A DNA stretch of 64,000 nucleotides from Pisaster brevispinus (Eukaryota; Echinodermata; Asteroidea; Forcipulatida; Asteriidae), in the NCBI GenBank assembly GCA_023634235.1, contig JAMKCF010000008.1:3725001-3789000 (forward strand), written 5' to 3'. The notes under the pieces are model-generated. The model searched no databases. It had not been told where the DNA came from and worked only from the letters and a program-made list of their open reading frames with translations. Below, in pieces: positions 22,746 to 54,734 of the stretch (the first letter of the stretch is position 1; each line of letters starts with the position of its first letter). The translations under genes and the position numbers were made by a program.

Positions 22746-23449
22746 TTTGATAGACCTTTGCCCCCCAAAATAGCTTGGTTGCGAAGGCAACAGGCGAATT
22801 ATCATTTCAGGGTGGTTTCCCAATTTGTTCGGTTTCTGAAGAGTGAAATAACCCTGTTTTCATGGCCGCAATACCATTAAACAGAATATATACGTTATAA
22901 ATTCTGTAAAAAATAATAATATAAACTCTTTAAACGTTATGGATAGGTGGGTGAGAGGCTGCATTAAATGCATAAAACTAGTCAACAGGTATGGGTGGGT
23001 TAAACCATTCGTTTCAAATAGGGGTGTTTTTAAAAACTTTTTGTACCATCTTTTGACAGCTCATAACCCATATGATAGTACTCCGATTTCAACATCGACC
23101 ACACATAGTTGAGATGAGACATTGATCTTGTGGTTACCACATTTGCTTGGAAAGTACTTTATACTTTGCAGTGCTACACCGGGCATTTTTCCATTCTTCG
23201 AAATTAACTTGGGCAGCTACATAATATTATAACAAGTGCTCTCCCGCCGCATTTTCAAAAGTTCTCTGGCGATTTTTATGAAACTTGCCGCAAATGTTCA
23301 TTTTACCAAGTTTACCAAAATTTCCGTTAATGACAATTGAAAAAAAAATAATCAGGGGAAATTGTTTGTATTTTTTTGCCCATTTTTTTTCAAAAACATT
23401 TTTTCCCCCATAATTTCAGTTTGATCGCACTGAGCCATGAAAAGACCAG
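22746..23449. other. Intergenic stretch, nothing recognised
   Basis: AT-rich sequence between the 235-bp tandem units and the palindromic repeat cluster. No open frame or repeat of note was identified. Confidence 0.4.
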
Positions 23450-24665
23450 GGCCCAGTTTCATAAAGCATGTAAGCACAAAAACTTGCTAAGCACAGGAAA
23501 ATCTTGTAAGCAAAAACAGGTTACCAACCAACTTTCCATAAAGTTTACATTGTTGCCACTGGTACACCGCTCATTTCTTGCTAAGTAAAGAAAATTGCTT
23601 AGCAGAATTTTCTTCTTAACAGCTTTATTGGGCCCTGGGCCCAATTTCATAAAGCTTCTAATTCTCAGCACAAATTTTTGTTAAGGACAGAAAAATATTG
23701 CCTAGCAGAAACTGGTTACGAGACAAAATTTCATAAAGTTTACATTGTTTTGACTGGTGCCCACTCGATTTTTTGCTTAGCATAGAAATTTGCTAAGCGG
23801 TGTTTTCTGCTTTACAGCTACAAAAACTGGGCCCTGAGCCCAATTTCACGGCTCTGCTTACCGTTAGCAAAGAATTGGCGCTTACGGAAGCAGGAAATTC
23901 CGCGCTTACGTCAAGCGCATTTCACGGGTTAGCAGAGAATTTTTACTTGTGTGCGTGCGTACTCTACGTTACTAGGCATTATTTGCTGACACAGCTAGCA
24001 CAGAAATTCGGCACTTTTACGGTAAGCGGAGAACAGTGATCGTAAGCGCAGAATTTAGGCGTTAAGCAGAGCCATGAAATTGGGCCTGGGTTCAATTTCA
24101 TAAAGCTTTTAAGCAGAGAAACCTGCTTAGAAATTTCTTTGCTAAGCAAACAAATACTTGGGCACCAGTCACAACAATGTAAACTTCAAGGAATTGTGGC
24201 TGGTTACCTGTTTCTGCTAAGCAATATTTTGTGTGCTTAGCAAGTTTGTGTGCTTACGGGCTTTATGAAACTTGGCCCTGGTCAATTGGGGTGTGATGTA
24301 AAGATTAACATTGTTTTGACTGGTGCCCACTCGATTTTTTGCTTAGCATAGAAATTTGCTAGGCGGTGTTTTCTGCTTTACAGCTACAAAAACTGGGCCC
24401 TGAGCCCAATTTCATGGCTCTGCTTACCGTTAGAAAAGAATTGGCGCTTACGGAAGCAGGAAATTCCGCGCTTACGTCAAGCGTATTTCACGGGTTAGCA
24501 GTAAGCTGAGATTGATTGATAACATTGCCCTCGTTGGCCGGTCTATGTTGTGCTCATTAGTTTAAATTGTGTGCGTGCGTACTGCGTACTCTACATTACT
24601 AGGCATTCTTCGCTTACACAGCTAGCACAGAAATTCGGCACTTGCAGAGTAAGCGGAGCCCGGCT
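23450..24665. repeat. Cluster of five palindromic GGGCCCAATTTCATAAAG repeats
   Basis: Copies lie end to end at about 23450-23636, 23636-23835, 23835-24085, 24085-24285 and 24300-24660. Each opens or closes with GGGCCCAATTTCAT or its complement, with AAGCAGAAAC and GCTTAGCA words inside. The segment 23742-23940 is repeated almost identically at 24308-24502, spanning the junction of two copies. The cluster therefore grew partly by local duplication. Confidence 0.8.
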
Positions 24666-25389
24666 CTGTGAACTAGCGAATAATGGCCCCTAAACAAGCA
24701 TAATGTTATGCATAATGTGCTTGTTGTGCGGAGAACTTACTCTCAAATCAACTGTTTTCATTTTGTATCAAGTAAAAGTATTTTCAAAAAACTGCAAGAA
24801 TACTAAAACCCGATAATGGACCGGGTCAAGATGACCATGGGTGTTCCTTGGTTCTCTTGGTCTGGGCATGTGGAAAATTGTTTAAATACAGTTCTATTGG
24901 TTTTGTGCGCAAATGAATGTTAAAAGTAAAAAACAGTAACTGGACATTCGATTGTCGAATATCGAACGTCAAACGAGTATCTGTAGTATCGACTGAAACA
25001 AATCTGAATGAGAGAGAGACGAAATCATTCAATTTTAACAGTTGTAATTCAACCTAAGAGTAGTCAATCTGTAGTATCGACTGAAACGAATCTGAATGAG
25101 AAAAACAAAATCAAGTGTGCACGAAAATAAATGCATTAATTGCAATAAAGAAACCCTAGTTTGAGTGGATTAGCGGGAAATGCGTGAATTAATTTTTTTG
25201 TGAATGTGTACTAATACAATTGAATGAAGTTTTGCTGAAATTGACAGGAAAAGACGCATATTTCAAATAACTCATTGAGTGAAAAGCATTTGTATTTGAA
25301 TCCCTATACTTAATCTCGGCTTGTACTTTTATATTTTTTGTTGATGACTTTTCGATCTCTTTTTAACATTTCCAGGCAGTTGTATTTGT

Positions 25390-25643
25390 GTGATTGAATT
25401 CCGAGCAAGTCCTCTAGTTTGTGCAAACATCTGAAAGATCTTACTCTACTTTCGAGGGTCTCAGAGTGAAGTTGATGGAAAAACAGTCATACTACTTTGA
25501 GGAGCTCACCTGTTAGTGATGAAGCTGTGAGATGAGGCAGAAGTTGATCAAGAGTGGAGACACCTCAGAATAGAACCAGTTGATGGAGAGACATCCCCAG
25601 CGGTGGATGACGGCAAGGTGTGCACCATGTTTTACAGGTAAAA
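25390..25643 (+). pseudogene. Decayed exon-like segment at the outer end of the left arm
   Basis: Counterpart of the better preserved right-arm segment at 45075-45343. It starts after an acceptor-like TTTAACATTTCCAGGCAG and ends at a donor-like TTTTACAG|GTAAAA. In-frame stops and substitutions break the reading. The product family is not recognised. Confidence 0.35.
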
Positions 25644-25861
25644 ATCGTTACCTTCTTTTTTTTTTCTCTTCCGAGAAACATAGATTTTCTCTCTTTAATA
25701 ATTTTTGATCTAAATGTGTATTTGCTATAATATATATTTTTGTTAAGCTTTTTTTTTTTATACTAAATCTTTAACCGTTTTCCAATTAAACTCAGTATTT
25801 CACGTTTAATATAGTTTTTAAGGGCCACCAACAACAGAAATCCATCAATTTTAACACCCGG

Positions 25862-27004
25862 CTGTGCGGCCCCTAAATGTAGCCCGAGCCCTTAATGTCG
25901 CCCGACCTAAATGTAGCCCCAAAGTTGTACCTAAATGTCGCCCGACCTAAATGTAGCCCCAAAATTGTACCTAAATGTCGCCCGACCTAAATGTAGCCCA
26001 AAAGTTGTACCTAAATGTCGCCCGACCTAAATTTAGCCCCAAAATTGTACCTAAATGTCGCCCGACCTAAATGTAGCCCCAAAGGTGTACCTTAATGTCG
26101 CCCGACCTAAATGTAGCCCCAAAGTTGTACCTAAATGTCGCCCGACCTAAATGTAGCCCAAAAGTTGTACCTTAATGTCGCCCGACCTAAATGTAGCCCC
26201 AAAGTTGTACCTAATGTTGCCCCGACCTAAATGTAGCCCCAAAGTTGTACCTTAATGTCGCCCGACCTAAATGTAGCCCCAAAGTTGTACCTAATGTTGC
26301 CCCGACCTTCATCTTACCATGATCTTACAGATACAGGGAAGAGTATTTCAAAGCTTCCGGTCTTGAAACCGCAGAATCGGGAGTGTTCGAGGTGCTGGTG
26401 GGGTGGGTGGGGGGGGGGGGGGTAAACTATGGGGCAAAACACGCGATTGGCTTGTCCTCAGCGGCGTAGCCACGGGGGGGGGGTCTGGGGCCATACCACA
26501 CGCTAACTAAGGAGCACAATAGAGCGTTCTGATTGGTCCGTTTCAGCAAAGGTCGTGCGTTTTAAAGAAGGTAAACCAATTAAAGCGTTATTACTAATAC
26601 ACGCACTGGTGGTACAGGGCGCTAGCCTTGGAGCACAGCCTGGTTTATCGCATGCGGTGCGTGGGATGTTAATACAGCGGCACTCGGTACACTATGTGCG
26701 TAATCGGTGTCGCTAGCGTTAATTGGTGATAATAACAATAGAGGCAAGAGGTATTAGAAAACTAAACAAACTTAAATGTTTTCTCCTGCCCATTTTTCTT
26801 ACTCCACTGATCTGTTTTTGTGTGTGTATCAACTTTATTTTAATGTATCATAAAATAGCCTTTCTTACCCCTTCGCATGGAAACAGCAGTCGTCATGACT
26901 GATAGGTACAACTTTGGGGCTACATTTAGGTCGGGTGACATTTAGGTACAACTTTGGGGCTACATTTAGGTCGGGCGACATTTAGGTACAACTTTGGGGC
27001 TACA
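25862..27004. mobile_element. Foldback-like insertion with inverted 40-bp minisatellite ends (left arm only)
   Basis: The left end (about 25866-26310) is about 11 units of a 40-bp repeat built from two related halves, CCTAAATGTAGCCCCAAAG and CCTAAATGTCGCCCGA. The right end (26908-27004) is just over two units of the same repeat in reverse complement (GTACAACTTTGGGGCTAC, CATTTAGGTCGGG). About 0.6 kb of unique DNA lies between. The right arm lacks it at the equivalent place, so it is an insertion or replacement after arm duplication. No coding capacity was seen. Confidence 0.75.
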
Positions 27005-27104
27005 AGAATCAGTTGTCTGTTCCCTTTTCACAATCTTTACTCGAAAAAAGAATGAATGTATGTTTTAATCAATATTATTTATTCTTGTGTGTACAGGAAT
27101 AGTC

Positions 27105-27182
27105 CTTATTGGTCTCACGGGGAGCTTTGGAATCTTCATCAGGAAAGGAATGCAGCCAGCTGTAGAATGCAACAACAGATGA
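27105..27182 (+). pseudogene. Exon-like open segment conserved in both arms
   Basis: After an acceptor-like ATTCTTGTGTGTACAG, the sequence reads IVLIGLTGSFGIFIRKGMQP and AVECNNR before a stop. The right arm (minus strand, about 43920-44010) keeps the same frame with few changes. No family is recognised. It may be a relic of a captured or element-encoded gene. Confidence 0.3.
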
Positions 27183-27389
27183 GACCCTGACATTCTGCAC
27201 CGGACTGTTCCAAGGATACATACCTGTGCTCTGAAGAATTTTGGGTGCTTTGGATTACAACTCTAGGGCTTAACATTGTGAAGATTTTTTTGTATCGAGA
27301 CACTAGATCTGGATTGCAGTTAATAATTGGATGTTGTTGTGGATACAGAGGATCCAAGTTCTGTGTATTATTATAAGTTTGTATTCTTT

Positions 27390-27423
27390 TATTTATTTAT
27401 ACCTTATTTATTTATTTATGTAT

Positions 27424-27458
<35 letters not shown>

Positions 27459-27465
27459 TTGTAAA
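27390..27465. repeat. TATT microsatellite (left arm)
   Basis: A run of TATT tetranucleotides with a few interruptions. The inverted equivalent in the right arm is the AAAT run at 43500-43600. Confidence 0.9.
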
Positions 27466-27764
27466 TATATAGTAATTGATATGAAATATGCAATAATTTT
27501 TTTATAACAAGACATTGAGTCTGGATTCCATTTGATATTGGATATGTGGTTCTGGCTGTAAAGGATCCAAGTGCTGTGGATTATGTATTAAGTTCTTATT
27601 TATTTATTAGTTGCAAATAATACAGTAATTGATCATGACAAATTTAAGCAAAAATTAAAAAAATAGCGAGTTTTTTTTTTTAAATACGCATGTATGTTCA
27701 CGACAAGTCATATTTTGTTGATTTTTTTTTTATTTAAAGGTTTTGATATTTAAATCAAAGAAAA

Positions 27765-28260
27765 ATAACAATGTAAACGCTTTGAAGTTAAATATAAAAA
27801 TGAAGTTTATTTTCCACAGATATTTCCTCATAAACTTTCGATTTATGTGGAAAAATCTGGTGGAAAAAATTAAATTTTTATTTAAAAGTTTATATAACTT
27901 AATTAAAGGAAACAAAACAGTGTAAACGCTTTAAAATTAAATTAAAAAAATGTATTGCATTTTTCATTACTTTTAGATTTTTGTGGGAAAATCTGGTGAA
28001 AAATGCTAAATTGTTATTTTTGTATTTAAAAGTTTTGATATTTTAATTAAAGAAACAAAATAATGTAAACGCTTTGAAATTAAATATAAAAATGTTTTTT
28101 TATTTACGACTAGATGTTTTCTCATAAACTTTTGATTTCTGTGGAAACATGGAAAATGTTTTTAAATTGTTTTCATTTGAAGCTTTTGTTATTTTAATTA
28201 AAGCAGATAACAAAGCAAACGCTTTGATATTAATTTTTAAAATGTTTTATTAATACTTTT
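27765..28260. repeat. AT-rich tandem repeat, about 145-bp unit (left arm)
   Basis: The words AAACGCTTTGAAATTAAATA, then TTGATTTTTGTGGAAAAATC and TTTTAATTAAAG recur about four times (near 27777, 27925, 28068 and 28217). The same array is inverted in the right arm at 42665-43165. Confidence 0.8.
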
Positions 28261-28636
28261 GTATGAAAATTTTTTAATTAAAGGGGTACACTCACAGCAT
28301 CTTAACTTTCCTAATTGATTTTTGTTAATTTATTCTGTGTCTTACTTGCCACTGTTTATTTAATTAAGAGGACAAAATCATTTAATAAAAACTTTAATTA
28401 CTTCGGGGAAACTTGATCTCCGCTACAAAGGGGAGACGAGTTTTTTTTCAGTGGTGGCAGTTTTAAATAACTAATTTTTGAAAAAGAGGGCGCCCTTCAT
28501 AAACAACAGAGGGCGCCCTTTATGGTCAACAGAGGGCGCTCTTTACACCATATATTTTAAGTATTAACGTGTGTTTATATATACAACACGTGGTTCTAAT
28601 ATTCATCACGGTTGAAAAACAAAGATTTGTTGTGGA

Positions 28637-28720
28637 GCGCCGATGGCCTAGCGGACAGGCTCGCGCACGGAGAGAGCAAGATGGAAGACCTGCATGGGTT
28701 CGAATCCCGGCAAGTCACAA
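28637..28720 (+). mobile_element. tRNA-derived SINE head (left arm)
   Basis: The A-box-like TGGCCTAGCGGACAGGCTCG is followed about 40 bases later by the perfect B-box GGGTTCGAATCCCGG. The acceptor arms do not pair well and the anticodon region is purine-rich, so this is a SINE or tRNA pseudogene rather than a tRNA gene. The mirror copy is at 42190-42275. The tail continues into a TAACATGCAC repeat and purine-rich sequence. Confidence 0.7.
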
Positions 28721-28899
28721 GGTAAGAGGATCTGTATATGGTATATATAATAACATGCACTAACATGCACTAACACGCACTAACAACCACCACGCACGAT
28801 GCACGAGGAGGGACAGGCAAGGACGCAGGAAGGAGAGGGGGATGGACAGAGAGAGAAAGAGAGTAGAGGGGTGGACAAATTTTTTTCAATATCCAATTT

Positions 28900-29105
28900 T
28901 TTTTTACAAAATCAAAAAAATATATGAAAAATCAAACAATTTACGGTCTTTCAGTTTTTTAAAATCGGCTGAAACGCACGCTCGTTAATTATTTTTCATT
29001 TTCAATTTTATTTTTGAAAAAATTGGAAAATTAAAAAATTTACGGTCTTTCATTATTTTAAAATCGGCTGAAACGCACGCTCGTTAATTATTTTTCATTT
29101 TCAAA
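28900..29105. repeat. Duplicated 'AAATCGGCTGAAACGCACGC' block (left arm)
   Basis: AAATCGGCTGAAACGCACGC and the following CTCGTTAATTATTTTTCATT occur twice, about 95 bp apart. The mirror pair lies at 41810-41950. Confidence 0.8.
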
Positions 29106-30179
29106 AAAAAAATATTTAAAAAAGGTCATTTTTGGTGCAAAAAGCTCTTTACATGCTCATAATTACGTTTTAACTGTAGTAGACTACATGTAACACCCAT
29201 TTTGGTCAAAAATACAGTTTTATTTCAATAACAATGTGCAGTTTAATGTATTTAACCTTTTTAAACACAATTTGTAGTCGCTTAACTTCATTTCCATACA
29301 TTTCTACCGTTTTATTACAAACAGAGCTCAAATCCTTCTGATCGAAGGGCCTAAACGTTCTACATTACATTTTATAATAGTAACATATAAGTTTCAACTA
29401 AACAAGTTAAATTAATGATAGCTAAAAGTAAAACACACATTTAAACTTGCAAGTTACAAAATAATGGATTCTTATGATTAACATAAAAATTACAACTTAG
29501 TTCTGGCAAAGAAAAACGTCAACGCAGATTTTCATCAAGTGACAGCTTTATCTATAAGTTAACACAAACACTTGGCAAGATCTCATGTTTAACTCCATGG
29601 TTTTAAGCAAAATGAAGGGGGCGCTCTATTACTCCTATTTCTCCCAAAAATTCAGATAATACATAATACATAATACAGTCTGGTACATAATGTTCTTGCA
29701 TGACTGTGAGTCTGTGTTGTTCATTTGGAGACAGGGCACCAGACAAAAATGGCTACTGACTGAATAATTCTTTAAGGTAAAAGAGCATGAGGAAAACGTC
29801 CTTTTTGATTAATTGTAAAATTTGCACAACAGTGGAGATCAAATTTGTTCCTGACTTTATATCCTACCCTTTATAGCACTCTGAAACCTCAGCAAACTTG
29901 TGTCTACAAGTAACAACATCTTTAAAGCTACGTCAATGCTAAATACATACATTAATCTTACGAACTAGGACATCATAGCTGATCTAATTCAGTTTGTTCT
30001 GAAAAGATGAGATGCTGTAGCAGCTTCTTGTTTCTTTAAAGTAGGACCGTGATCAGTTTTAAAAAAAAGTTTTATGATTACTGATTGGTCTACAGTAAAG
30101 GCCTGTTTACATTATACAAGACATTGTCTGGATACGTTTTTCACTTTTGTTCTTGTCAAAAAACTTCTTGGCATACATA

Positions 30180-33100
30180 CACTGTAAAGCGTAAACACAG
30201 TGGATTATGCATGATGTTTACAAAAGTAACGTGAGGACTAGTAGTGAAGACAATGATGTCTTGTATACGTTGTGTAAACAGGCCCTTTTACAATGTGTAT
30301 TGTTAACGTAACAAGCCTACCTCAATATCCCAAAAGTCCATATGTTATGCAGTTGAGTTTGCTTGATGCAGAGAGCAGATGATGTAGTTGAAATCATGGT
30401 TAAGTCAGAATCCAAGACGCTTTGGTTGAGCTTGTGCATCTCTCATTAGAACTGAGGCGTTTAATTGTCAGATCATCTTGAATGTACTGCAATATAAACC
30501 CAAAGAAGATTATACATAAAATAACCCTAGAAAATGACCAACAAATTGTTATAACTGTCTTTGAGTTGTATGATTATTTAACTAAGCCACATCAGACCTG
30601 TCCTGAATTCAGCAATTCTTACTACAACTTCAACCTCAGGAAACTAAGTGCAAGAATGTAACACGCGAGATGAGGAGGGGGGGGGGCTGATAAGGAGGAA
30701 GACAGATAAATACTGATAGGATCCAAAAGGGCAAGAGGGCATGTAAAGATGGCAGATTCGTAAGATACAGTTTGGATAAATAGGGGAGATGTATATTGGT
30801 GTGAAGGAATTCACAATGTACATGGCACTCTAACAGGGGTAACATGTTGGGGGTAGGAACCTGAGTGACAGCAAACTGAGGTGCATGTTTGAGATTGATA
30901 CAGTACGCACTAGAAGGGGTAACATGCTGGGGGTGGATCCAGAGTGACAGCAAAGAAGGACTTGTGTTTGGATTGATACGGTATTGCACTAAAAGAGGTA
31001 ACATGTTAGGGCATGATCCAGAGTGGTAAGTGGGGTCCAGAGTAGCAAAGTGGGGTGCATGTTTGGAATTCATACAGTGTGGCAGTAGAAGGGGTTTTGT
31101 TGGGGGAGGGCTCGAGTGACAGCAAAATGTTGGTGCTTGCTTAGGATTTAAAAATGGCAACCTTGGTAACATGTTGGGGGAGGATACAGTATGGCACAAA
31201 AAGGGATAACATCTTTGGGGAGAAGCCAAAGTGACAGCAAAGTGGGATGCAAGTTTGGGATTGATATGGCACTAGCTTGAATACAGTTGATGGTGCATGA
31301 GGTTTTAAAGAATCACGGTGGGACTAGTATAGTGAGGGCGATGATGTCCTGTATGTGTTGTGTAAACAGGCCCTTTTACAATGAGTATTGTGTACATAGC
31401 CTACCTCAATATCCCAGAATTCTTTAAGTTATGTAGTTGAGGTTGCTTGATGCAGAGAGCAGATGATGTGGTTGAAATCATGGTTAAGATTGAAGCCAAG
31501 TGTTCTCTTCAGTCGAGCTTGTGCATCTCTCATTCGAAATGAAGCATTTAATTGTCAGGTCATCTTGAATGTACTGCAATATAAACCCAAAGAAGATAAT
31601 ACATCAAATGTCTCCAGCCAAGGAACAACAATTGTTTATAACTGTCTTCTGTGTAATGAATATTTAAAACCACATCGGGTACATCCTGAATTCAGCAATT
31701 CTATCTAAAACTTCAACCTCAGGAAACTAAGTGCAAGAGTGTGAGATGCGAGATGGGGGGGGGGGGCTGATAAGGAGGAAAACAGATAAGGATCCAGCGG
31801 GGTAAGAGGGCAAGTCAAGATGGCAGATTTATAAGATACAGTTTGAATAAATGGGGGAGATGTTTATTGGTGTGAAGGGATAGACAATGTATATGGCACA
31901 ATAAAAGGGGTAACATGTTGGGGAGGATCAGAGTGACGGCAAAGTGGGATGCATGTTTGGGATTGATACAGTATGGCACAGAAAGAGGTAACATGTTGGG
32001 GGAGGAGCCAAAGTGATAGCAAATGGGGATGCATAAATGGGGTTGATACATTATTGTACTACAACGGGTAACATGTTGGGGGAGGAGCCAAAGTGATAGC
32101 AAAGTGGGATGCAAGTTTGGAGTTGATACAGTATGGCACAGAAAGAGGTAACATGTTGGGGGAGGAGCTAAAGTGACAGCAAAAGGGGATGCATAATTGA
32201 GATTGATACATTATGGTACTACAAGGGGTAACGTGTTGGGGGAGGATCCAGTGACAGCAAAAGTGGGATGCAAGTTTGGAATTTATACAGTATGGCACAG
32301 AAAGAGGTAACATGTTGGGGGAGGAGCCAAAGTGACAGCAAAAGGGGATGCATGTTTGGGATTGATACAGTATGGCACAAAAAGGGGTAAATGTTCGGGG
32401 AGGAGCCAGAGTGACAGCAAAGGGGGTGCGTGTTTGGGATTGATATGGTATGGCACTAGAAGGAGTAAGATGTTGATGGAGGATACAGAGTGGCAGCAAA
32501 GTTGGACGGGACTTTGGGATTGACACACTACAGCACTATAAAAGGGGTAATATGTTGGGGGAGGATCCAGAGTTACAGCAAAGTGGGATGCATGTTTGGG
32601 ATTTATACAGTATAGCATAAAAAGAAGGGGTTACATGCTGGGGGAGGAGCTGGAGTGACAGCAAAGTAGGATGCATGTTTGGGATTTTTTACGGTATTAC
32701 ACAAAAAGGGGTTACAAGCTGGGGGAAGTGCTGGAGTGACAGCATTGTACTACAAGGGGTAACATGTTGGGGGAGGACAGCAGTGACAGCAAAGTGGGAT
32801 GCAAGTTTGGAATTTATACAGTATGGCACAGAAAGAGGTAACATGTTGGGGGAGGAGCCAGTGACAGCAAAGTGGGATGCAAGTTTGGAGTTGATACAGT
32901 ATGGCACAGAAAGAGGTAACATGTTGGGGGAGGAGCTAAAGTGACAGCAAAAGGGGATACTTAATTGAGATTGATACATTATGGTACTACAAGGGGTAAC
33001 ATGTTGGGGAGGATCCTGTGACAGCAAAGTGGGATGCAAGTTTGGAATTTATACAGTATGGCACAGAAAGAGGTAGCATGTTGGGGGAGGAGCCTAAGTG

Positions 33101-33530
33101 ACAGCAAAAGGGGTTTCGTGTTTGGAATTGATACAGTATGGCACTAATAAAAGGGGGGCTGATAAAGAGGAAGACAGATATACTTAAAGGATTCAGTGGA
33201 GGAAGAGGGCATGTCAAGATGGCAGATTAATGAGATACTGTTGGGATAAATGGGGGAGATGTATACTGTAGTGAAGGGATTGACAATGTATGTCACTTTA
33301 ATAGGGGTAATATGTTGGGGGAGGAGCCTGAGTGACAGCAAAGTGGGGTGCATCCAATGGAATTGATACAGTTATGGTGCTAGAGCTTAGATGGGGTAAC
33401 ATGTTGGGGAGGATCAGAGTGACAGCAAAGTGGGTTCGTCTTTGGAATTGACACAGTATGGCACTAATAAAAGGGGTAACTTGTTGGGGGAGGATCCAGT
33501 GTGACAGCAAAGTGGGGACGGGAGTTTGGG
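30180..33530 (+). repeat. Twice-repeated A-B-minisatellite module (left arm)
   Basis: Order: block A (30187-30345), block B (30345-30655), minisatellite array 1 (30660-31260, about five to seven units), block A' (31270-31440), block B' (31440-31740), and array 2 (31745-33520, about 20 units). The unit is about 80 bp, centred on GTAACATGTTGGGGGAGGAG and GACAGCAAAGTGGGATGCA. Units near a multiple of three in length keep accidental open frames. The right arm holds the same plan inverted at 37090-40260. Confidence 0.85.
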
Positions 33531-33876
33531 GTCAAGGATGGTAGAAATGGGGTACATTTAGTGGGTAGATCCAGGGTGGTAGATATAAGGGGTAATGGTG
33601 TGGACTGCCAGTTTTGATCAAAGAAGGTGGTTTTAAAAAGTGTAGCATGTTACAGATAATATAATGCCTAGATATATTATTTAACTCACCAGAACTTCAA
33701 AAAAATGAGTAAAGTTTAAGCTGATGGTCTTCATTCGCTGAATCACTCTGTAGAAACCTTCTACACAAGGACCGTGAACAGTCTGTAAAAAAAGATGTAA
33801 AAAAAGGAAGGATTTAACAAAATGGATATCTCAATGCAGGCTGTTGAGGTAATTATTAAGCATTGAATGCACCTGT

Positions 33877-34117
33877 GGGCCCAATTTCATAGAGCTGCTT
33901 AAAGGATGACTCTGCGCGATTTCCATTTCATAGCACTGTTAACCGTAAGCACACGAAAAGGCATGGTAGCCTTTCGGTGCTATACTGTATGAAAACGAAC
34001 GGCGTAACAATGCAAATCTATGGTGAACGCGCAAGATGGCTGCCTACTAGCAAATTTTTCTGCTATAGTTAGCACGAAAATTTGCTTATTGTTAAGCAGC
34101 GCTATGAAATTGGGCCA
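33877..34117. repeat. Palindromic GGGCCCAATTTCATAGAGC repeat, left-arm specific
   Basis: Starts GGGCCCAATTTCATAGAGCT and ends CTATGAAATTGGGCC. The middle contains TAGCACGAAAATTTGC. The right arm has unrelated sequence (about 36370-36815) at the matching point, so the insertion postdates arm duplication. Confidence 0.8.
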
Positions 34118-35299
34118 CGCCAACAAGAAATAGCTAAAGCATGAAAGCACATAACTGAGTGATAAAATGTTCATCCTCTATTGACCCCTTTCCCATATCC
34201 CTGCCCACCCCCATCACCAATTTTCATCGGTCCATCTGGGCCCTGCCATGCCAGGTTTCCCCACTTTCAAAACCGCGACGATCGGCCTGCCCACCCACCT
34301 GGCCCAGGGCCTACTGGCCTAGCTGCCAGTACCGTCTACTCGCTCATGCTAACTAACTGTAAGTGTCTATGAACTGTGCCCCGGCCATGCGTATAAGGCC
34401 TGTGTGTGTGTGTGTGTGTGTGCCTGACCGAGGTCCATCTAATGCATTGCTTTTGAAAGTCGCCGAACCGCTACACAAGTTAGTTTATAGTGTCTTCCTG
34501 TGATGTGGTTGTTGGTTATTGTGAAACTGGTCAAAAACACTGACTGAGTTTGCACAGGATAGAGACTAAACTAGTCATGACTACAATACGGTCATTGTAA
34601 TTGTATACACTAGACAATCATCACTGTCACTGCCAGCAATGTCACCTCGCTTGATCTCTGGACTGTCTACCACCCAAGCGACTGTGAATTGGTTTAATTT
34701 GTGGCACAACAAACATAAACATTTGAACTAACTATTTCAAGAAACTAGTGAAACTAGTGTGCAGGGCTGCAGTAAACACCACAAACATCCACGAATACAT
34801 ACTACTACCGTGCTACTAGTAGTGCAATTTATTTGACATGTCTTCCTCCCTCAGATTCTGTCATTGTCAGATGCTCTGTCTGTCTCTCTCCGCTGTGTGT
34901 GGAGACAGAAGGGATGACATATGGTAAACCCTTGCTCTATGGGTAAACAAACATACAGTTGTACTGATTACCGGACTAGAGTACAGTCGTAACAAAACTT
35001 GCTGCCAAAAGCTATCATTTTAAGGCAATTTTACACATAGATACACGCCAAATGACCTATAAACCACTTCCATAAATTAAAACGTAAAAACTGAACACAA
35101 AAATATGTACCTCCTAAAGTTTTGTGACGAGAAAACTTCATTTTGAAGAACCTCACAACACGTCGTGTAAGCAGACGACAGCTCAATCAATGTTATTGTA
35201 CATTGCGTTCCGGGTACTCACAACGCATGTGCAGCAAATGATGCCAAAGTGAGGGCACCCTCTTTTGGAACAAATTTAACAGTCATGAACTGTCTTTTA

Positions 35300-35826
35300 A
35301 TTTATTTTTATAAAGTGTGCGGAAGTTTTGTGTGAAGGAAATTCGAACGTTCCGCTCGGCGAAACTTTTTTGAATTTACTTGCACAAAAGCTGCAGTTTT
35401 GTTTGTAAAAAATACAAAACTGCATTTTTTGTGTATTAGAAGGTAGCCTCTCTTGAGATAAAAAATAGTTGCTGCAACTGAACCCGACATTCTGGCGGAA
35501 ATAAGTATGAAATCCTGACAGTCGAGCAGGTACATTCTGTTGAATTTTGTTTTATTGCGTAAATTTAATCCAATCTGTGGGACATCTACAATACAATTGT
35601 ATAGGGTATATAATTATTTAATTAAATAATTATAAATCATCCCATCAGGGTACAGTTTTTTGGTAATTTGTCAAAGACCAGTATCCTTACTAAAAGAAAT
35701 TACGAAAGAAAAAAAACCCTTGATGCCTGAAACCACTTTCAGGCTCAAATTTTGGGAGAACAAAATTACCTCTTTCTGGCCTATGGTGAAAAAGAGAGAT
35801 AATTATTAAAACTATTGCAGCAAGAT
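35300..35826. other. Spacer between the inverted arms, with a 26-bp perfect palindrome
   Basis: About 0.5 kb not repeated in inverse orientation. Near its centre, positions 35609-35634 form a perfect 26-bp palindrome of A and T (core TTTAATTAAA). No gene was recognised. Short open frames end early. Confidence 0.7.
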
Positions 35827-37089
35827 AATAAGACAGTTAATGTTTAATTTGTTTCAAGAGAGGGTGCCCTCACTTTCGCGTCATTTGCTGCACATGCGTA
35901 GTGAGTACCCGGAACGCACTGAACAATAACATTGAGCTGTCGTCTGCTGCTTACGACGTGTTGTGGTGAATTGTGGTTCTTCAAAATGAAATGTTTTCAT
36001 CACAAAACTTTGGGAGGTACATATTTTTATGTTCAGTTTTTACATTTAGTTTATGGAAATGGTTTATATGTCATTTGGCGTGTATCTATGTCTGTAGTCT
36101 GTACTCACTGTCAGACTGTAGTGAGTGTTGTTTGTTGTGTCAGTGTTAGTCCGGTAAATCGGTAATCAGTAGTGTTTACATCCGTCTCTGTTTGTTGTGC
36201 CACTAGTTAAACCAATTCACAGTCGCTTGGGTGGTAGACAGTCCAGAGATCGAGCCAGCGGGTGACACTGCTGACAGTGACAGTGATGATTGTCTGTAGA
36301 GGATGAACATTTTATCAGTTATGTACTTTCATGTTTTTTATAGCTATTCCTTATTGGCATATATCTTTCCTTGGCAATGGAGTCAAAGTGTTTAAAATGC
36401 AAGCAGAATGTTTTACAATCTCTTGGCTATAATATCCATCCCCATATCAAGGAAGAGGTCTCACAATTTAGTTCTCAAAGTGAATACGCTGTGAACTGTT
36501 AATTTACAATTTCACATTATTTACATGCAAGGAATATTTTAAAATCTCTACATACCCTTTCCCATATCAAAGAACAGGTCTCACAAGTTAGTAATTGAGG
36601 CCAACTAACCTCTGTGACCTGGTAATTTATAATTTAGTTAGCTTAATTTGCTCACTTAACTTGTGGGCTGTTCCTTGAGATGAGGCATAGTTTGCTTTAT
36701 TACTAGCTTGTGAGACCTGTTCTTTGATAAGGGGGAAAAGTTCAATTTTGTCACAAAGTTTTATTGAATAAGATGGTTGTATTAAGTTTGGTTAAGAACC
36801 CAGTGAAACCACAGGTACATTCAATGCTTAATAATTACTGCAACAGCCTGCACTGAGATCCATTTGGTTAAAAAACTTCCTTTCTACACATCTTTTTTTA
36901 CAGACTGTTCTCGGTCCTTGCGTAGAAAGTTTCTACAGAGTGATTCAACGAATGAAGACCATCAAATTAAAATTTACTCATTCTTTTGAAGTTGTGGTGA
37001 GTTAAATAAAATATCTAGGCATATATTATTTGTTACATGCTACACTTTTTAAAACCACTTTCTTTGATCAAAACTGGCAGTCGACACCA

Positions 37090-40000
37090 TTACCCCTTAT
37101 GTCTACCACCCTGGATCTACCCACTAAATGTACCCCATTTCTACCATCCTTGACCCCAAACACCCGTCCCCACTTTGCTGCCACACTGGATCCTCCCCCA
37201 ACAAGTTACCCCTTTTATTAGTGCCATACTGTATCAATTCCAAACACGAACCCCATTTTGCTGTCACTCTGGCTCCTTCCCCAACATGTTACCCCTTTTT
37301 GTGCCATACTGTATCAATCCCAAACATGCATCCCACTTTGCTGTCACTCTGATCCTCCCCAACATGTTACCCCATCTAAGTTCTAGTACCATACTGTATC
37401 AATCCCATTGGATGCACCCCACTTTGCTGTCACTCAGGCTCCTCCCCCAACATATTACCCCTATTAAAGTGACATGTTCATTGTCAATCCCTTCACACCA
37501 TTAAACATCTCCCCCATTTATACCAACAGTATCTCATTAATCTGCCATCTTGACATGCCCTCTTCCCCCGCTGAATCCTTTAAGTATATCTGTCTTCCTC
37601 TTTATCAGCCCCCTTTTATTAGTGCCATACTGTATCAATTCCAAACACGAACCCCCTTTTGCTGTCACTTAGGCTCCTCCCCAACATGTTACCTCTTTCT
37701 GTGCCATACTGTATAAATTCCAAACTTGCATCCCACTTTGCTGTCATTGGCTCCTCCCCAAACATGTTACCTCTTTCTGTGCCATACTGTATAAATTCCA
37801 AACTTGCATCCCACTTTGCTGTCACTGGATCCTCCCCAACATGTTACCCCTTGTAGTACCATAATGTATCAATCTCAATTAAGCATCCCCTTTTGCTGTC
37901 ACTTTAGCTCCTCCCCCAACATGTTACCTCTTTCTGTGCCATACTGTATCAATTCCAAACTTGCATCCCACTTTGCTGTCATTGGCTCCTCCCCAAACAT
38001 GTTACCTCTTTCTGTGGCATACTGTATCAACTCCAAACTTGCATCCCACTTTGCTGTCACTGGATCCTCCCCCAACATGTTACCCCTTTCTGTGCCATAC
38101 TGTATAAATTCCAAACTTGCATCCCACTTTGCTGTCATTGGCTCCTCCCCAAACATGTTACCTCTTTCTGTGCCATACTGTATAAATTCCAAACTTGCAT
38201 CCCACTTTGCTGTCACTGGATCCTCCCCCAACATGTTACCCCTTGTAGTACAATGCTGTCACTTCAGCTCTTCCCCCAGCTTGTAACCCCTTTTTGTGCC
38301 ATACCATAAAAAATCCCAAACATGCATCCTACTTTGCTGTCACTCCAGCTCCTCCCCCAGCATGTAACCCCTTCTTTTTATGCTATACTGTATAAATCCC
38401 AAACATGCATCCCACTTTGCTGTAACTCTGGCTCCTTCCCCAACATGTTACCCCTTTTTGTGCCATACTGTATCAATCCCAAACATGCATCCCACTTTGC
38501 TGTCACTCTGATCCTCCCCAACATGTTACCCCATCTAAGCTCTAGCACCATAACTGTATCAATCCCATTGGATGCACCCCACTTTACTGTCACTCAGGCT
38601 CCTCCCCCAACATATTACCCCTATTAAAGTGGTCAATCCCTTCACACCATTAAACATCTCCCCCATTTATACCAACAGTATCTCATTAATCTGCCATCTT
38701 GACATGCCCTCTACCCCCGCTGAATCCTTTAAGTATATCTGTCTTCCTCTTTATCAGCCCCCCCCCCCCCTGTCTCTCATTCTTGCACTTAGTTTCCTGA
38801 GGTTGAAGTTGTAATGCAATTGCTTAATGCAGGAGGTGCCTGTTGTGGTTTGAAATATTCATCACAACCCAAAGACGGTTATAAAAAGCTGTTGGTCCTT
38901 GGCTGGAATAATTTTATGTATACATCTTTTTCGGGTTTAAATTGCAGTACATTCAAGATGGTCTGACAACAGTTCTTAAGAGAGATGCACAAGCTCGGCT
39001 GAAGAGAACACTTGGCTTCTGTCTTGTGCACGATTTCAACTATGCCATCTTCTCTCTGTATCAAGCAAACTCAACTGAGTAACTTAAAGACTTCTGGAAT
39101 GTATTGAGGTAGGCTTGTCACATTAACAATACACATTGTAAAAGGACCTGTTTACACCATATATACAGGACATCATCGTCCTCACTACCAGTCCTCACGT
39201 GATTCTTTAAAACCTCATGCATCAACTGCTGTATTTAAGCAAGTGCTGTATCAATCCCAAACTTGCATCCCACTTTGCTGTCACTAGTGCATATTCTATC
39301 GATCCCAATCCTGCAGCCCACCTTGCTATCTTTCTGGATCCTCCTCCAACATATTACCCAGGTTACCATACCCAGTTTGCTTTCACTCGAACCCTACCCC
39401 ATCATGTTACCCCTTCTACTGCCCCACTGTATGAATCCCAAATAAACACCCCACTTTGCTACCACTCTGGATCATCCCCTAACATGTTACCTCTTTTTGT
39501 GCATTACTGTATCAATCCAAAACATGCGTTCTTCTTTGCTGTCAGTCTGGATCCACCTCCAGCATGTTACCCCTTCTAGTGTGTACTGTATCAATCTCAA
39601 ACATGCACCCCAGTTTGCTGTCACTCAAGTTCCTACCCCAACATGTTACCCCAGTTATAGTGCCATGTACATTGTGAATTCCTTCACACCAATATACATC
39701 TGCCCCATTTATCCAAACTGTATCTTACGAATCTGCCATCTTTACATGCCCTCTTTCCCTTCTGGATCCGATCAGTATTTATCTGTCTTCCTCCTTATCA
39801 GCCCCAGCCCTGTCTCGTCTTAGTTTCCTGAGGTTGAAGTTGTAGTAAGAATTGCTGAATTCAAGTTAAATAATCATACAACTCAATGACAGTTATGAAA
39901 ATGTGTTGGTCATTTGCTGGAGTTATTTTATGTAATATCTTCTTTGGGTTTATACTGCAGTACGTTCAAGATGATCTGACAACTAAACGCCTCAGTTCCA

Positions 40001-40260
40001 ATGAGAGATGCACAAGCTCGACTGAAGAGAACACTTGGCTTCTGTCTTAACCATGATTTCAACTACGTCATCTGCTCTCTGCATCAAGCAAACTCAACTG
40101 CATAACATGTAGACTTTTGGGATATATTGAGGTAGGCTTGTTACGTTAACAATACACATTGTAAAAGGGCCTGTTTACACAACGTATACAGGACATCATT
40201 GTCTTCACTACTAGTCCTCACGTTACTTTTGTAAACCTCATGCATCATCCACTGTGTTTA
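37090..40260 (-). repeat. Twice-repeated A-B-minisatellite module (right arm)
   Basis: Inverted counterpart of 30180-33530: array 2 (37190-38620, about 17 units), B' (38790-39090), A' (39095-39235), array 1 (39240-39800), B (39820-40110), A (40115-40260). Array lengths differ from the left arm, as expected for independently drifting minisatellites. Confidence 0.85.
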
Positions 40261-40361
40261 CGCTTACAGTATATGTATGCCAAGAAGTTTTTTTACAAGA
40301 ATAAAAGTGAAAAACGTATCCAGACAATGTCTAGTATAATGTAAACAGACCTTTACTGATA

Positions 40362-40528
40362 GACCCCTTGCACTACACGCAGCGCACTCACACGTGCCTA
40401 TCCGGTCCTGTCCGCCATTTTGGGAGTCAAAATCGTGCACAAATATGCACAAAATGTTTGACTCCCAAAATGATGGACATGGTAGGCGCGCATTGTTAGT
40501 AGGTGCGTTCCGCGTTGTGCAAGGGGTC
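40362..40528. mobile_element. TA-flanked MITE (copy 1, right arm only)
   Basis: Terminal inverted repeats GACCCCTTGCA and TGCAAGGGGTC, bounded by TA on both sides (40360-40361, 40529-40530), as for Tc1/mariner-type targets. The interior has a further inverted pair around TTTTGGGAGTCAAA and TTTGACTCCCAAAA. Absent from the left arm. Confidence 0.75.
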
Positions 40529-40542
40529 TATAGAAATCAATA

Positions 40543-40691
40543 GACTCCCTTGCATAGCGTGAAACACTACAGGTGCGTTGAGGTCACGCGCAAGCTTTTA
40601 CGCACAAAGAACATCTATTGACCAATGATCTGCCTTCTTTTGGCCTCAGAGATAGTGCTTTTTGAGAGTGTGACGTCATATGCAAGGGGTC
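40543..40691. mobile_element. TA-flanked MITE (copy 2, right arm only)
   Basis: Ends GACTCCCTTGCAT and ATGCAAGGGGTC, with flanking TA on both sides, 14 bp beyond copy 1. The interior differs from copy 1 but resembles the copies at 46151 and 51008 (GCACAAAG, CCAATGATCTGCCTTCTTTT). Confidence 0.7.
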
Positions 40692-42189
40692 TATATGTTG
40701 TTATTACTACTGCTGTTTAATTGCATTTAGGTACTTTCAACTCGATTCAAACAAAATGCAAACAAAGCCAACCTTAATAGTGTATCATATCTAAAGGGAC
40801 TGTGTATCATGTGTAATCATAAAACTTTTTTTAAAACTGACCACAGTCCTACTTCATAAAACAAGAAGCTACTACAGCACCTTTTATTTTCAGAACAAAC
40901 TGAATTAGATCAGCTATGATGTCCTAGTTTGTAAGATTAATGTATGTATTTAGAGTTGACATAGCTTTAAAGTTGTTGATACTTGTAGACACAAGTTTGC
41001 TGAGGTTTAAGAGTGCTGTAAAGGGTAGGATATAAAGTCAGAAACAAATTTGATCTCCACTGTTGTGCAAATTTTACAATTATTCAAAAAGAAAAAGGAC
41101 GTTTTCCTCATGCTCTTTTAACTTAATGAATTAATCAGTCAGTAGCCATTTTTGTCTGGTGCCCTGTCTCCAAATGAACAACACTGACTCACAGTCATGC
41201 AAGAACATTATGTACCAGACTGTATTATGCCTTGTGTTCTAAAGGTAAAAAATCTGAAATTTTCGGAGAAATAGGAGTAATAGAGCGCCCCCCTTCATTT
41301 TGCTTAAAAACCATGAAGTTAAACATGAGATCTTGCTAAGCGATTGTGTTACCTTACAGATAAAGCTATCACTGGATGAAAATTTACGTTGACGTTTTTC
41401 TTTGCCAGAACTAAGTTGTAATTTTTGTGTTAATCATAAGAACATATTGTTTTTTAACTTGCAAGTTTAAATGTGTCTTTTTGCTATATAAATTTAACTT
41501 GTTTAGTTAAAACTTACATGTTACGATTGTAAAATGTAATGTAGAACGTTTAAGGCCCTTCAATCAGAAGGATTTGAGCTCTGTTTGTAATAAAACGGTA
41601 GAAATGTAAGGAAATAAAGTTAAGCGACTGAAAAATGTGTTTAAAAAGGTTCAATACATTAAACTGCACATTGTTATTGAAATTAAAGTGTATTTTTGAC
41701 CAAAATGGGTATTACATGTAGTGTACTACAGTTAAAACGTAATTATGAGCATGTAAAGAGCTTTTTGCATCAAAAATGCCCTTTTTTAAAGATTTTTTTT
41801 TTGAAAATGAAAAATAATTAACGAGCGTGCGTTTCAGCCGATTTTAAAATAATGAAAGACCGTAAATTTTTGAATTTTCCAATTTTTTCAAAAAAAAAAT
41901 GTGAAAATGAAAAATAATTAACGAGCGTGCGTTTCAGCCGATTTTAAAAAACTGAAAAACCGTAAATTTTTTGATTTTTCATATATATTTTTGATTTTGT
42001 AAAAAAAATTGGATATTGAAAAAAATGTGTCCAACCCTGCGCTCCGCTCTCTCTGTCTCTGTCCACCTCCCCTCTCCTTCCTCCGTCCTTGCCTGTCCCT
42101 ACTCGTGCATCGTGCGTGGTGCGTGGTGATTGTTAGTGCGTGTTAGTGCATGTTAGTTTACCATATACATATACTCTTACCTTGTGACT

Positions 42190-42275
42190 TGCCGGGAATC
42201 GAACCCATGCAAGTCTTCCATCTTGCTCTCTCCGTGCGCGAGCCTGTCCACTAGGCCATCGGCGCTCCACAACAA
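42190..42275 (-). mobile_element. tRNA-derived SINE head (right arm)
   Basis: Mirror of 28637-28720. On the minus strand the A-box-like segment reads TGGCCTAGTGGACAGGCTCG, and the B-box GGGTTCGATTCCCGG has one change from the left copy. Confidence 0.7.
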
Positions 42276-42664
42276 ATCTTCGTTTTTCAACCGTGATGAA
42301 TATTAGAACCACGTGTTGTATACATAAACACACGTTAATACTTGTATAATATATGGTGTAAAGAGCGCCCCCTGGTGACCATAAAGGGCGCCCTCTGTTG
42401 TTTATGAAGGGCGCCCTCTTTTTTCAAAAATTAGTTACTTAAAGCTGCCACCACTAAAAAAACTCGTCTCCCCTTTGTAGCGGAGATCAAGTTTCTCCGA
42501 AGTATATTTTAAGTTTTTATCAAATGATCTCGTCCTCTTAAATAAATACAGTGGCAAGTTAGACACAGAATAAATTTTAAAAAATCAATTAGGAAAGTTT
42601 AGATGCTGTGAGTGTACCTCTTTAATAAAAAAAATGTTCATACAAAAGTAAAACTAAAACACAT

Positions 42665-43165
42665 TTTTTATAATTAATATCAAAGCGTTTGCTTTGTTTT
42701 CTGCTTTAATTAAAATAACAAAAGCTTCAAATGATAACAATTTAAAAATATTTTCCGTATGTTTCCACACAAACTAAAAGTTTATGAGGAAACATCTAGT
42801 CGTGAATAAAAAAATATATATATATTTAATTTCAAAGCGTTTACATTGTTTTTTCTCTTTAATTAAAATGTCAAATCCTTTAAATACAAAAATACAAATT
42901 CAACAATTTCCACCAGATTTTCCACAAAAATCTAACAGTAATGAAAAAATGAAATACATTTTAAAATTTAATTTCAAAGCGTACACATTGTTTTGTTTCC
43001 TTAAATTATATATATTGTAAATAAAAATATAATTTTTTCCACCAAATCTGGTGGAAAAAAATATATTTTTATAAATCTGTCCACATAAATCGAAAATTAT
43101 GAGGAAATATCTGTTGAAAATAAAATGCATTTTTATATTTAACTTCAAAGCGTTTACATTGTTGA
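42665..43165. repeat. AT-rich tandem repeat, about 145-bp unit (right arm)
   Basis: Inverted counterpart of 27765-28260, with TTCAAAGCGTTTAC recurring about four times. Confidence 0.75.
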
Positions 43166-43499
43166 TTTTCTTTGATTATAATATCAAAACCTTTAAATAA
43201 AAAATAAATCAACAAAATATGAATTGTCGAAAAAAATTCCTGAACGTACAATACATACTTATTTAAAACAGAAATTACGTGAAGGTTGATCACTCTTTAT
43301 AACTCGTTTTTTTTTTGCTTAAATTTGTTATGATCAATTACTGTATTGTTTAATTAATAAATAAATAAGAACTTAATACATAATCCACAGCACTTGGATC
43401 CTTTACAGCCAGAACCACATATCCAATATCAAACGGAATCAAGACTTAATGTCTAGTTATAAAAAAAATCTTGCATATTTCATTATCAATTACTATATT

Positions 43500-43543
43500 A
43501 TAATAAATAAATAAATAAATAAATGAATGAATAAATAAATGAA

Positions 43544-43582
<39 letters not shown>

Positions 43583-43610
43583 ATACATGAATAAATAAAT
43601 AATTAGGTAA
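43500..43610. repeat. AAAT microsatellite (right arm)
   Basis: A run of AAAT units with GAATG interruptions, equivalent to the TATT run at 27390-27465. It is responsible for the repetitive open frame at 43446-43670. Confidence 0.9.
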
Positions 43611-44299
43611 ATACATGTACAAACTTATAATAATACACCGAACTTGGATCCTCTGTATCCAGAACAACATCCAATTATTAACTGCAATCCAGACCTAGTG
43701 TCTCGATACAAAAAACTCTTCACAATGTTAAGCCCTAGAGTTGTAATCCAAAGCACCCCAAATTCTCCAGAGCACAAGTATGCATCATTGGAACAGTCCG
43801 GTGCAGAATGTCAGGGTTCCATTTGTGTTTTCATTAATTTGACTTCTATATTGTTCATGGTATTTACTCTGCAGAGGATCTGCTTTCGTCAATTCACACA
43901 GAATTTCAGTTTAAGCAAAGCTTGTTGTTGCATTCTACAGCTGGCTGCATTCCTTTCCTGATGAAGATTCCAAAGCTACCCGTGAGACCAATACGGACTA
44001 TTCCTGTACACACAAGAATAAATAATATTGATTAAAACATACATTCATTCAGTTTTAAGTAAGGGTTTTGAAAACGGAACAGCAAACTTATTATTGTTTT
44101 TACAATCATCATTATAATGGGTTATCGCTCTGTAACCTCAGTCAGCGCACCCCCCCAAAAAAAAAAACCCCCACAACAACAAACAAACAATACATATATA
44201 AGCGACATCAAAAGAAAGTAGCAATAAACCAGGAACGTGTTTGCTTCTTATTGATTGTCAAGGTAGAAGTACTGTCTCCACAATCTGGAATAGATAAGT

Positions 44300-46085
44300 T
44301 TTCCCGGCCACTTTCAGTAATAATTAATTCACTTTCATTAACACACCCTCAAATTCATGCATTTCCCACCTTTTGTATCCACTCAAACCAGGGTTTTTTT
44401 TTTTCGTTTTCGTGCACACATGATTTTGTCTCTCTCATTCAGATTCGTTTAACTCGATACTACAAATTGACTACTCTAAAGTTAAATTTCTACTACCAAT
44501 TTACACTTGATGAAAGTGAATGGTTAACCAGCTCTTGCTGCCGGCTTTTATGAAATTGAATGAGTCTTACGGCCTAATGAAATTAAAAGAGTTTATTTGA
44601 CCAGGGATCGCTAAACTGGTGAAATTGAATTGCTGCTTTTGACTGTTGAATGCTGATTCAACGGAGCATTCAACTTCAAACGAAATAGAATGAGCCAGGT
44701 GTTTAAATGAATGGATTTGTGTTGAAGTTGGCCAGGAAAACCTATATAAAAGGAAATTATGCAAAGTCTGCCCCCACTCATGTTTCAGTCATTGTGACTA
44801 AAAATACAATCTTGTTTAGTTATCTTTTTGGTTATCTTTTTGACTTTATTCAGTCTGAATTTTGTACCGATCCCATTTTTTCAAAAGAGTTTCTTTTGAC
44901 AGAAATTGAATAAGCCGGGTGTTAAAATGAATGGATTTTTTAAAATATTTTGTATTGCCCTGAAAAAACTATATTAAACATGAAATACTGAGTTTAATTG
45001 GAAAACGGTTGACGATTTGTAACCCCCCCCCAAAAAAAAAAAAAAAAAAAATTAAATAAATAAATAAAATAAAAAATATGGTGCACACCTTGTTGTCATC
45101 CACCGCTGGGGATGTCTCTCCATCAACTGGTTCTATTCTGAGGTGTCTCCACTCTTGATCAACTTCTGCTGCCTCATCTCACAGCTTCATCACTAACAGG
45201 TGAGCTCCTCAAAGTAATGAGAAAGGACTCTGTTTTTCCACCAACTTCACTCTGAGACCCTCAATAAAAGAGTTAGCTTTCTCAGATGTTGGCACAAACT
45301 TGAACTTGCTTGTTAGTGAGTCAATCACACAAATACAACTGTCAAGAAATGTTTAAAAGAAATAGTCATTAAAAGTCATTAACAAAATATATAAAAGCAC
45401 AAGCCGATATCAAGTATAGGGATTCAAAAACAAATGCTTTTAAAAACGATCAAATAAGTTTTAACTCAATGATTACTCCAAATTCAAAGAAAGTTATTTG
45501 AGAATTTCAGCAAAAATTCATCCAAAAGTATTAATACGCGTTCAAATTCACACATTTCCCGCTAATCTACTCAAACTGGGGTTTCTTTATAGCAAATAAT
45601 GCATTTATTTTCGTTTTCGTGCACACTTGATCTCTTTTGTCTCATTCAGATTCGTTTCGGTCGATACTACACATTGACACCTCTTAAGTTGAATTTCTAC
45701 TACCAATTTACACTTGTTAAAATTGCATGATTTCGTCTCTATGGCCTAATGAAATGAAAAGACCTTATCTGGCAAGTCAATGCTAAATTGGTGAAACTGA
45801 ATTACTCCTTTTGACTGTTGAATTCTGATTCAAAGGAGCATTCATTTTCAAACGAAATTGAATGAGCAGGTGTTAAAATGAATGGATTTTTTGTTAAAGT
45901 TGGCCGGGAAAACTATAAAGGAAATCATAATAAATCTGCCCCCCCCCCATTTTTTAAGTCATTATGACTAAAAAATACAAAATCTTGTTTACAAAAATAT
46001 GGTAATCTTTTTGGCTTTAGTGAAAATGTAGAAGTCGGATTTTTGTACCTATCCCATTTTGCTCAAATGACTTTCTTTGGACAGA
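44300..46085. repeat. Direct duplication at the outer end of the right arm
   Basis: The stretch 44335-44900 recurs at about 45540-46085: a TTTCGTTTTCGTGCACAC start, the TACTACCAATTTACACTTG block, CTGTTGAATGCTGATTCAA, AATGAATGGATTT, and an end near TGTACCGATCCCATTTT. Offset is about 1.2 kb. Only the outer copy's first part is matched by the left arm. Confidence 0.75.
45075..45343 (-). pseudogene. Decayed exon-like coding segment at the outer end of the right arm
   Basis: On the minus strand, after an acceptor-like CATTTCTTGACAG, one frame reads CICVIDSLTSKFKFVPTSEK followed by ANSFIEGLRVKLVEKQ before a stop at 45209. Downstream (45178-45075), another frame reads DEAAEVDQEWRHLRIEPVDG followed by ETSPAVDD. 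Both look like real protein by composition. The left-arm copy is more damaged. I do not recognise the family; a transposase or captured host gene are both possible. Confidence 0.4.
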
Positions 46086-54513: not shown

Positions 54514-54734
54514 TGTTGTCTTGTCACTACGCCACGCCTTCTAGACGTTTGACGACCGTCTGGTGGTGACACATTGCTGGAAGTTTTTGCACAGTGCAGT
54601 ATCACTTCCCGGCATGTTCTTCCTTAGGAAAAGTACATTGAGTAGTCCTGTAATTAATCAAGAAAAGTTATAAACCACAAGGGAAAAAAACTGGGTAAAT
54701 TTTAAATCAGTTGGGGTTGGACAAAGAAAATTTG

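Follow-up and report, generated by a model that had tools for sequence, protein, structure and literature searches.

The 64-kb window analyzed here, positions 3725001-3789000 of contig C8 in a 549.7-Mb, 512-contig assembly of the sea star Pisaster brevispinus, contains a giant mirror, in which two long inverted arms face each other across a short spacer. On balance, we favor reading this mirror as an old member of a dispersed family of giant mirrors (about 20 to 39 kb, with no recognizable genes) that descends from one ancestral mirror and whose arms were later homogenized. Throughout, C8, C19, C23, C30, and similar labels denote contigs of the window's own assembly, and C23a, C23b, C8b, C8c, and C30a denote loci.

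The inverted repeat in the window is real. Self-BLAST and an arm-to-arm MAFFT alignment recovered one colinear mirror matching 25015-35296 to 45740-35830, with a left arm at 25015-35296 (plus strand), a right arm at 35830-45740 (minus strand), and a 533-bp spacer at 35297-35829, which bears out the original prediction of arms of about 10 kb around a spacer of about 0.5 kb. The arm identity of 90-95% estimated at that time holds as an average of about 90% (mean 89.9%, 6633 of 7378 aligned columns) but not throughout, as identity by block was 86.0% at 25015-25640, 92.2% at 27063-30081, 93.6% at 30093-31026, 83.3% at 31027-33130 (arrays of an 80-bp unit), 94.6% at 33131-33878, 94.2% at 34612-34715, and 90.9% at 35035-35296. 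A chance origin is excluded, since the longest inverted matches in three 20-mer-shuffled windows reached only 53, 44, and 45 bases. Homology of the right arm to a young family copy on C19 extends to about 46132, so that position 45740 marks where the left arm fades out and not necessarily the end of the element.

Genome searches, proposed with the original prediction to learn whether the whole unit or a single arm recurs, found that both do; the result was the opposite of a single locus, with mirrors present elsewhere, and a lone inverted segmental duplication is thereby ruled out. Using the arm piece 28000-29500 as query, the best 40 of 181 candidate places were the window's two arms (91% identical to each other) and 38 others at 71-78% identity, including, besides the window, three plus/minus pairs in the same order that all proved to be mirrors: C23a (C23:4178001-4218000), C23b (C23:3252001-3292000), and C8b (C8:4876001-4916000). 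An outer-end query (best 40 of 497 candidates) returned nine plus/minus pairs 23.4-29.9 kb apart on C19, C36, C53, C57, and C58, and one further pair 12.3 kb apart on C8. Through this search we found a 39-kb mirror at C19:488550-527595, with arm identity of 92-98% in the outer blocks, 83% in the array, and 69-76% in blocks near the hinge, the inner end of the arms. Over their whole length, arms of the mirrored loci were 68-95% identical by block.

The best 40 of 81 candidates for a 629-bp piece of the C19 outer end were 93-100% identical (three of them partial) and included eleven left/right pairs 38.6-44.7 kb apart. Among the best 40 of 3147 candidates for the C19 spacer, 22 copies (query included) were 99-100% identical, and diverged copies lay on C19, C36, C25, C23, C8, and C20; the number of candidates is this high because a 400-bp dispersed repeat sits within that spacer. 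A 27-base hinge signature, allowing up to two mismatches, occurred 119 times in the genome (56 forward and 63 reverse, compared with 0 and 0 for the signature read backward). Among the 100 places listed, 32 belong to 16 pairs with 0.66-3.3 kb between partners, and in every pair, including that of the window, the arms point outward. Among the literature matches listed, mostly outside subscription journals, no report of giant mirrors in a sea star was found.

The alignments show that the mirrors of C19, C23a, C23b, and C8b have a single common origin, as hinge and spacer are homologous in all four. Homology runs unbroken through the hinge and the 1.3-kb spacer between C19 and C23b (85.6% over 2052 columns), C23a and C23b (84.3% over 2150), and C19 and C23a (82.4% over 1855), while the hinge and spacer of C8b align with those of the other three in pieces. 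Close to the hinge, out to about 1 kb, arms of these loci group by side and not by locus: over the first 400 bp, the two arms of one locus were 75.7-80.1% identical, and same-side arms were 81.0-95.9% identical to those of C23a. In a tree built from the 800 bp next to the hinge, the alpha-side arms of all four loci form one clade (95/92) and their beta-side arms another (100/99); three of the nine inner branches of this tree are open.

Farther out, grouping is by locus. A 1.6-kb mid-arm block, situated some 5-7 kb outward of the hinge, gave a tree with good support for all 11 inner branches. In it, four of the five mirrored loci (C19, C23a, C8b, and the window, but not C23b) had their two arms as sisters; within-locus identity was 93.7% in the window, 95.7% in C19, 97.6% in C23a, 92.6% in C8b, and 90.8% in C23b. 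In 14 of 16 windows of 400 bp taken from 4.0 kb outward, within-locus identity in both C19 (92.6-99.2%) and C23a (94.2-99.2%) was higher than in any of the four C19/C23a comparisons, and C23b showed no within-locus excess. The switch from side to locus grouping falls about 1.2-4 kb from the hinge, a region of patchy alignment.

The simple reading of side grouping near the hinge combined with locus grouping outward is an ancestral mirror followed by arm-to-arm conversion that spared the hinge. One mirror would have been laid down in copies at different places, after which the arms of each copy may have overwritten one another by gene conversion, with the vicinity of the hinge left untouched; in the four loci, no signs of conversion were detected up to 1 kb from the hinge. 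Several observations weigh against this reading. In the mid-arm tree, the right arm of C23b was sister to the arms of C23a and its left arm was not; for C8b, only 6 of the 13 windows from 4.0 kb on have its arms more similar to one another than to those of C23a, none of these lying past 6.8 kb; the window arms were sisters at the hinge as well (100/99), with 90.1% identity across the 222 columns aligned in the first 400 bp; and a single-arm copy exists, C30a (C30, from about 272 kb to 314275), which stops at the hinge position and is followed by neither spacer nor mirror over 4.2 kb.

The place of the window copy in the family is accordingly less direct than that of the four loci. Its hinge position (35322/35853) corresponds to that of the C19 copy (508065/509319), and by arm homology and this shared position it is assigned to the family as an old member that likely shares in the common origin. 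Its spacer does not match the 1.3-kb spacer of the four other mirrored loci, and a stretch within it (35460-35687) is 70% identical to outer-arm sequence of the C19 copy. This copy has a spacer of its own and arms that pair as sisters even next to the hinge, so it could have arisen by an independent inverted duplication.

Extended to the whole family, such a process would mean that mirrors arose separately at every locus, each when a single arm was duplicated in situ in inverted orientation, and that arms and not mirrors are what dispersed. Unpaired arm copies are indeed common: those listed on C30 all lie on one strand (5 of 5 and 9 of 9; hinge signatures 7 of 7), at C8c a spacer adjoins one arm and no second arm was found in the 3.8 kb beyond, and C30a forms a clade of its own in the mid-arm tree with C3:15791504 and C8:4802270, the latter two unpaired in the approximately 4 kb examined. 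The mid-arm sisterhood of arms by locus and the spacer and hinge of the window point the same way. Nonetheless, we consider this explanation improbable, as a hinge, a spacer, and side-specific differences common to four loci are unexpected from independent events. An assembly artifact, either palindromic reads or two haplotypes fused head to head, comes to mind for a structure judged from assembled sequence alone, but is very improbable given arms that differ by about 10%, inserts specific to one side, and the same hinge at many loci. A very large non-autonomous foldback element was the other interpretation originally offered, and while a lone inverted duplication has been eliminated by the recurrence of the mirror, a foldback (terminal-inverted-repeat) transposon moved as a unit by some transposase has not been established. 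In its favor, long inverted arms make up the bulk of the element in the window and in other mirrored loci, the 80-bp array provides tandem sub-repeats, no gene was found, the inner arm end is defined even in the single-arm copy C30a, and the whole mirror with its shared hinge stands at sites whose fetched flanks are unrelated. The flanks of the window, C23a, C23b, C8b, C8c, and C19 copies showed no relatedness save for a match of 82-85% between the outer left of C23b and the outer right of C8b, and small dispersed repeats.

Against such a transposon stand the outer ends of the copies, which differ from one another with no end common to all, and the flanks of two young copies (C19:1002505 and C19:488550), which match at 99% over about 1.5 and 1.4 kb; this flank sharing comes from two copies compared on both sides. 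The edge ACACCAAGAC of the C19 copy was considered as a transposon terminus and is not supported, because the second copy shares both flanks. Nine R-type ends share one edge that is followed by two kinds of flank (six and three ends), each common to its members further out; other loci end at other places. A target duplication, which the original prediction proposed to look for at about 25.0 and 45.75 kb, did not emerge from the assembly: six boundary pairs, 25014/45741 among them, had at most 6-8 consecutive bases in common, a length matched by 23-97% of random pairs, although uncertain ends make this a weak test. With no target duplication found and with flanks shared between young copies, movement as a foldback transposon is unproven, and we regard it as rather unlikely. 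We instead infer that the family has recently spread mostly through the duplication of larger genomic blocks, which best accounts for the shared flanks of young copies together with spacer copies that lie in one orientation hundreds of kb apart (C19 4 of 5, C36 4 of 4, C57 2 of 2, and C59 2 of 2, among the best 40 of 3147). On C30, C39, C19, and C36, listed arm or spacer copies are mostly on one strand, tens to hundreds of kb apart, which suggests very large duplicated blocks.

The inner ends of the arms are conserved and carry signals that may relate to transcription. Hinge-proximal blocks at 35035-35296 (left arm, minus) and 35830-36091 (right arm, plus) carry the hinge signature and are conserved in 12 arms of six loci, and second conserved blocks lie at 34612-34715 (minus) and 36184-36298 (plus). 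Mean column conservation over the 12 arms was 0.84 at 0-60 bp, 0.79 at 60-130 bp, and 0.89 at 130-220 bp, compared with 0.70 at 220-800 bp. Read outward, typical arms contain GCACATGCGTAGTGAG and ACCCGGAAC, which we take to be NRF1-like and ETS-like motifs, followed in 10 of 12 arms by a GTAAGW donor, so the block may be promoter-like and exon-1-like. An exon-like block at 33690-33782 (left arm, minus) and 36904-36996 (right arm, plus), bounded in both arms by an acag acceptor and a GTGAGT donor, was found in seven of the ten arms given, with the acag acceptor in six of the seven and a GTRAGT donor in all seven.

Together, these signals point to two putative divergent, noncoding, spliced units reading outward from the hinge, which would act as a two-way promoter; each arm would then be one long spliced noncoding unit with the 80-bp array in an intron. 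Two observations speak against such units, since both window arms lack a GTAAG donor and the donor stretch stands no higher than 87th among 792 in conservation. It is a tentative and rather doubtful proposal that a conserved two-way hinge promoter drives two long spliced transcripts, that conversion keeps the arms alike, and that the spared hinge keeps two different promoters. The mirrored transcripts could possibly pair and serve as small-RNA precursors.

No recognizable genes were found in the arms, consistent with the original view that they carry none intact. A six-frame Pfam scan (E <= 0.1) of most of the left arm, the only arm scanned (25000-34003 forward and 26498-35501 reverse), returned no domain, and the longest open frame of the C19 copy outside the arrays was 126 amino acids. 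Exon-like peptides at 25531-25637 and 27103-27188 (left arm, plus) and 36212-36299 (right arm) first appeared to be coding and were rejected, as frames open in both arms show no excess of synonymous change, the right-arm counterpart of 27103-27188 contains a stop, the third exon-like block has indels between the arms that include lengths not divisible by three, and a 116-amino-acid open reading frame of the right arm is without any relative. Frames at 28.6-28.7 kb fall inside a tRNA-like stretch. A broken coiled-coil reading frame by the outer arm end of C23b (right flank) was considered as a candidate transposase and has neither a Pfam match nor a relative; the start of this flank also adjoins two ends on C25.

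The arms of the window also host several smaller repeats. The left arm contains the 80-bp tandem array with a higher-order repeat of about 1.1 kb at 30188-33529 (plus), and the array of the right arm lies at 37155-40264 (minus). Each arm carries inserts absent from its partner, with a small foldback element at 25864-27004, the inverted ends of which repeat a 40-bp unit in tandem (10.5 and 2.5 copies), and an insert with GGGCCCAATTTCAT ends at 33879-34117 confined to the left arm, and an insert at about 40359-40812 and much of 44110-44912 confined to the right. The right arm has a direct repeat (about 75%) at its outer end, at 44397-44903 and 45604-46085, with a TATAAAAGG motif in its first copy. 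Both arms include the tRNA-like stretch (28637-28720 and about 42182-42265), with what are presumably box A and box B motifs; it is perhaps a short interspersed nuclear element predating the duplication, and ARAGORN identified no tRNA and Rfam no match in these stretches. Outside the mirror, an element at 19860-20846 has inverted ends of about 93 bp (about 82%) around 80-bp repeats that belong to the family of the arm arrays, and related foldback-like repeats occur at 23400-24660, 11418-11811, and 49448-50081, some with ends resembling the GGGCCCAATTTCAT ends of the left-arm insert. An open reading frame at 18095-18601 with an integrase zinc-binding domain (Pfam PF17921) is probably a retroelement remnant. 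A POMGNT2 gene lies on the minus strand at 52795-54540; its identity is 83% to the Asterias rubens gene and 60% to that of Patiria miniata, which fits a starfish close to, yet distinct from, A. rubens.

Among known systems, foldback elements (FB, Galileo, the sea urchin TU, and Tetris) likewise have long inverted repeats, internal tandem repeats, and a non-coding middle. The starfish arms differ in their length of about 10-19.5 kb and in the conserved block at their inner end. For Tetris, inverted repeats of up to 1,735 bp and a target duplication of 8-10 bp are described (PMC4079207), whereas no such duplication was found at the six boundary pairs of the starfish mirrors, the ends of which are uncertain. 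Polintons, Terminons, Teratorn, and other giant transposons are similar in size. Those described in PMC6431247 (Polintons, Terminons, and Teratorn) bear genes, in contrast to the short open frames of the C19 copy. Pachytene piRNA (Piwi-interacting RNA) clusters with two-way promoters bear a formal likeness to the starfish hinge, although the starfish units are predicted from sequence. Some of these clusters are divergent. They are characterized in PMC7782496 as discrete loci with long, often intron-containing transcripts. Tribolium satellites with macro-dyad symmetries, the subject of a 2026 paper (PMC13081366), may offer a further useful comparison.

A further parallel concerns conversion between arms. 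Such a family would bear on how large palindromes of this kind survive and spread. Arm-to-arm conversion is best known from a few gene-bearing sex-chromosome palindromes, and a single invertebrate genome with copies of varied age at many sites would allow the reach of conversion toward the hinge to be measured. Among the palindromes of mammalian Y and X chromosomes, those of the Y are described as kept alike in their arms by conversion while the spacer diverges by mutation (PMC3723533), and this likeness of arms through conversion resembles our reading of the starfish mirrors. Unlike the mammalian palindromes, the starfish mirrors are dispersed over many contigs, and no gene was found in them; their arms are 90.8-97.6% identical in mid-arm and 68-95% by block, compared with over 99.9% in mammals, and thus they lack the gene-bearing arms of over 99% identity that characterize sex-chromosome palindromes. 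As in palindromes maintained by conversion, the arms of one mirror are more alike than the arms of other copies in four of the five loci of the mid-arm tree, in C8b over part of its length, and for four loci, the window aside, the common origin of the mirror would precede the homogenization of its arms.

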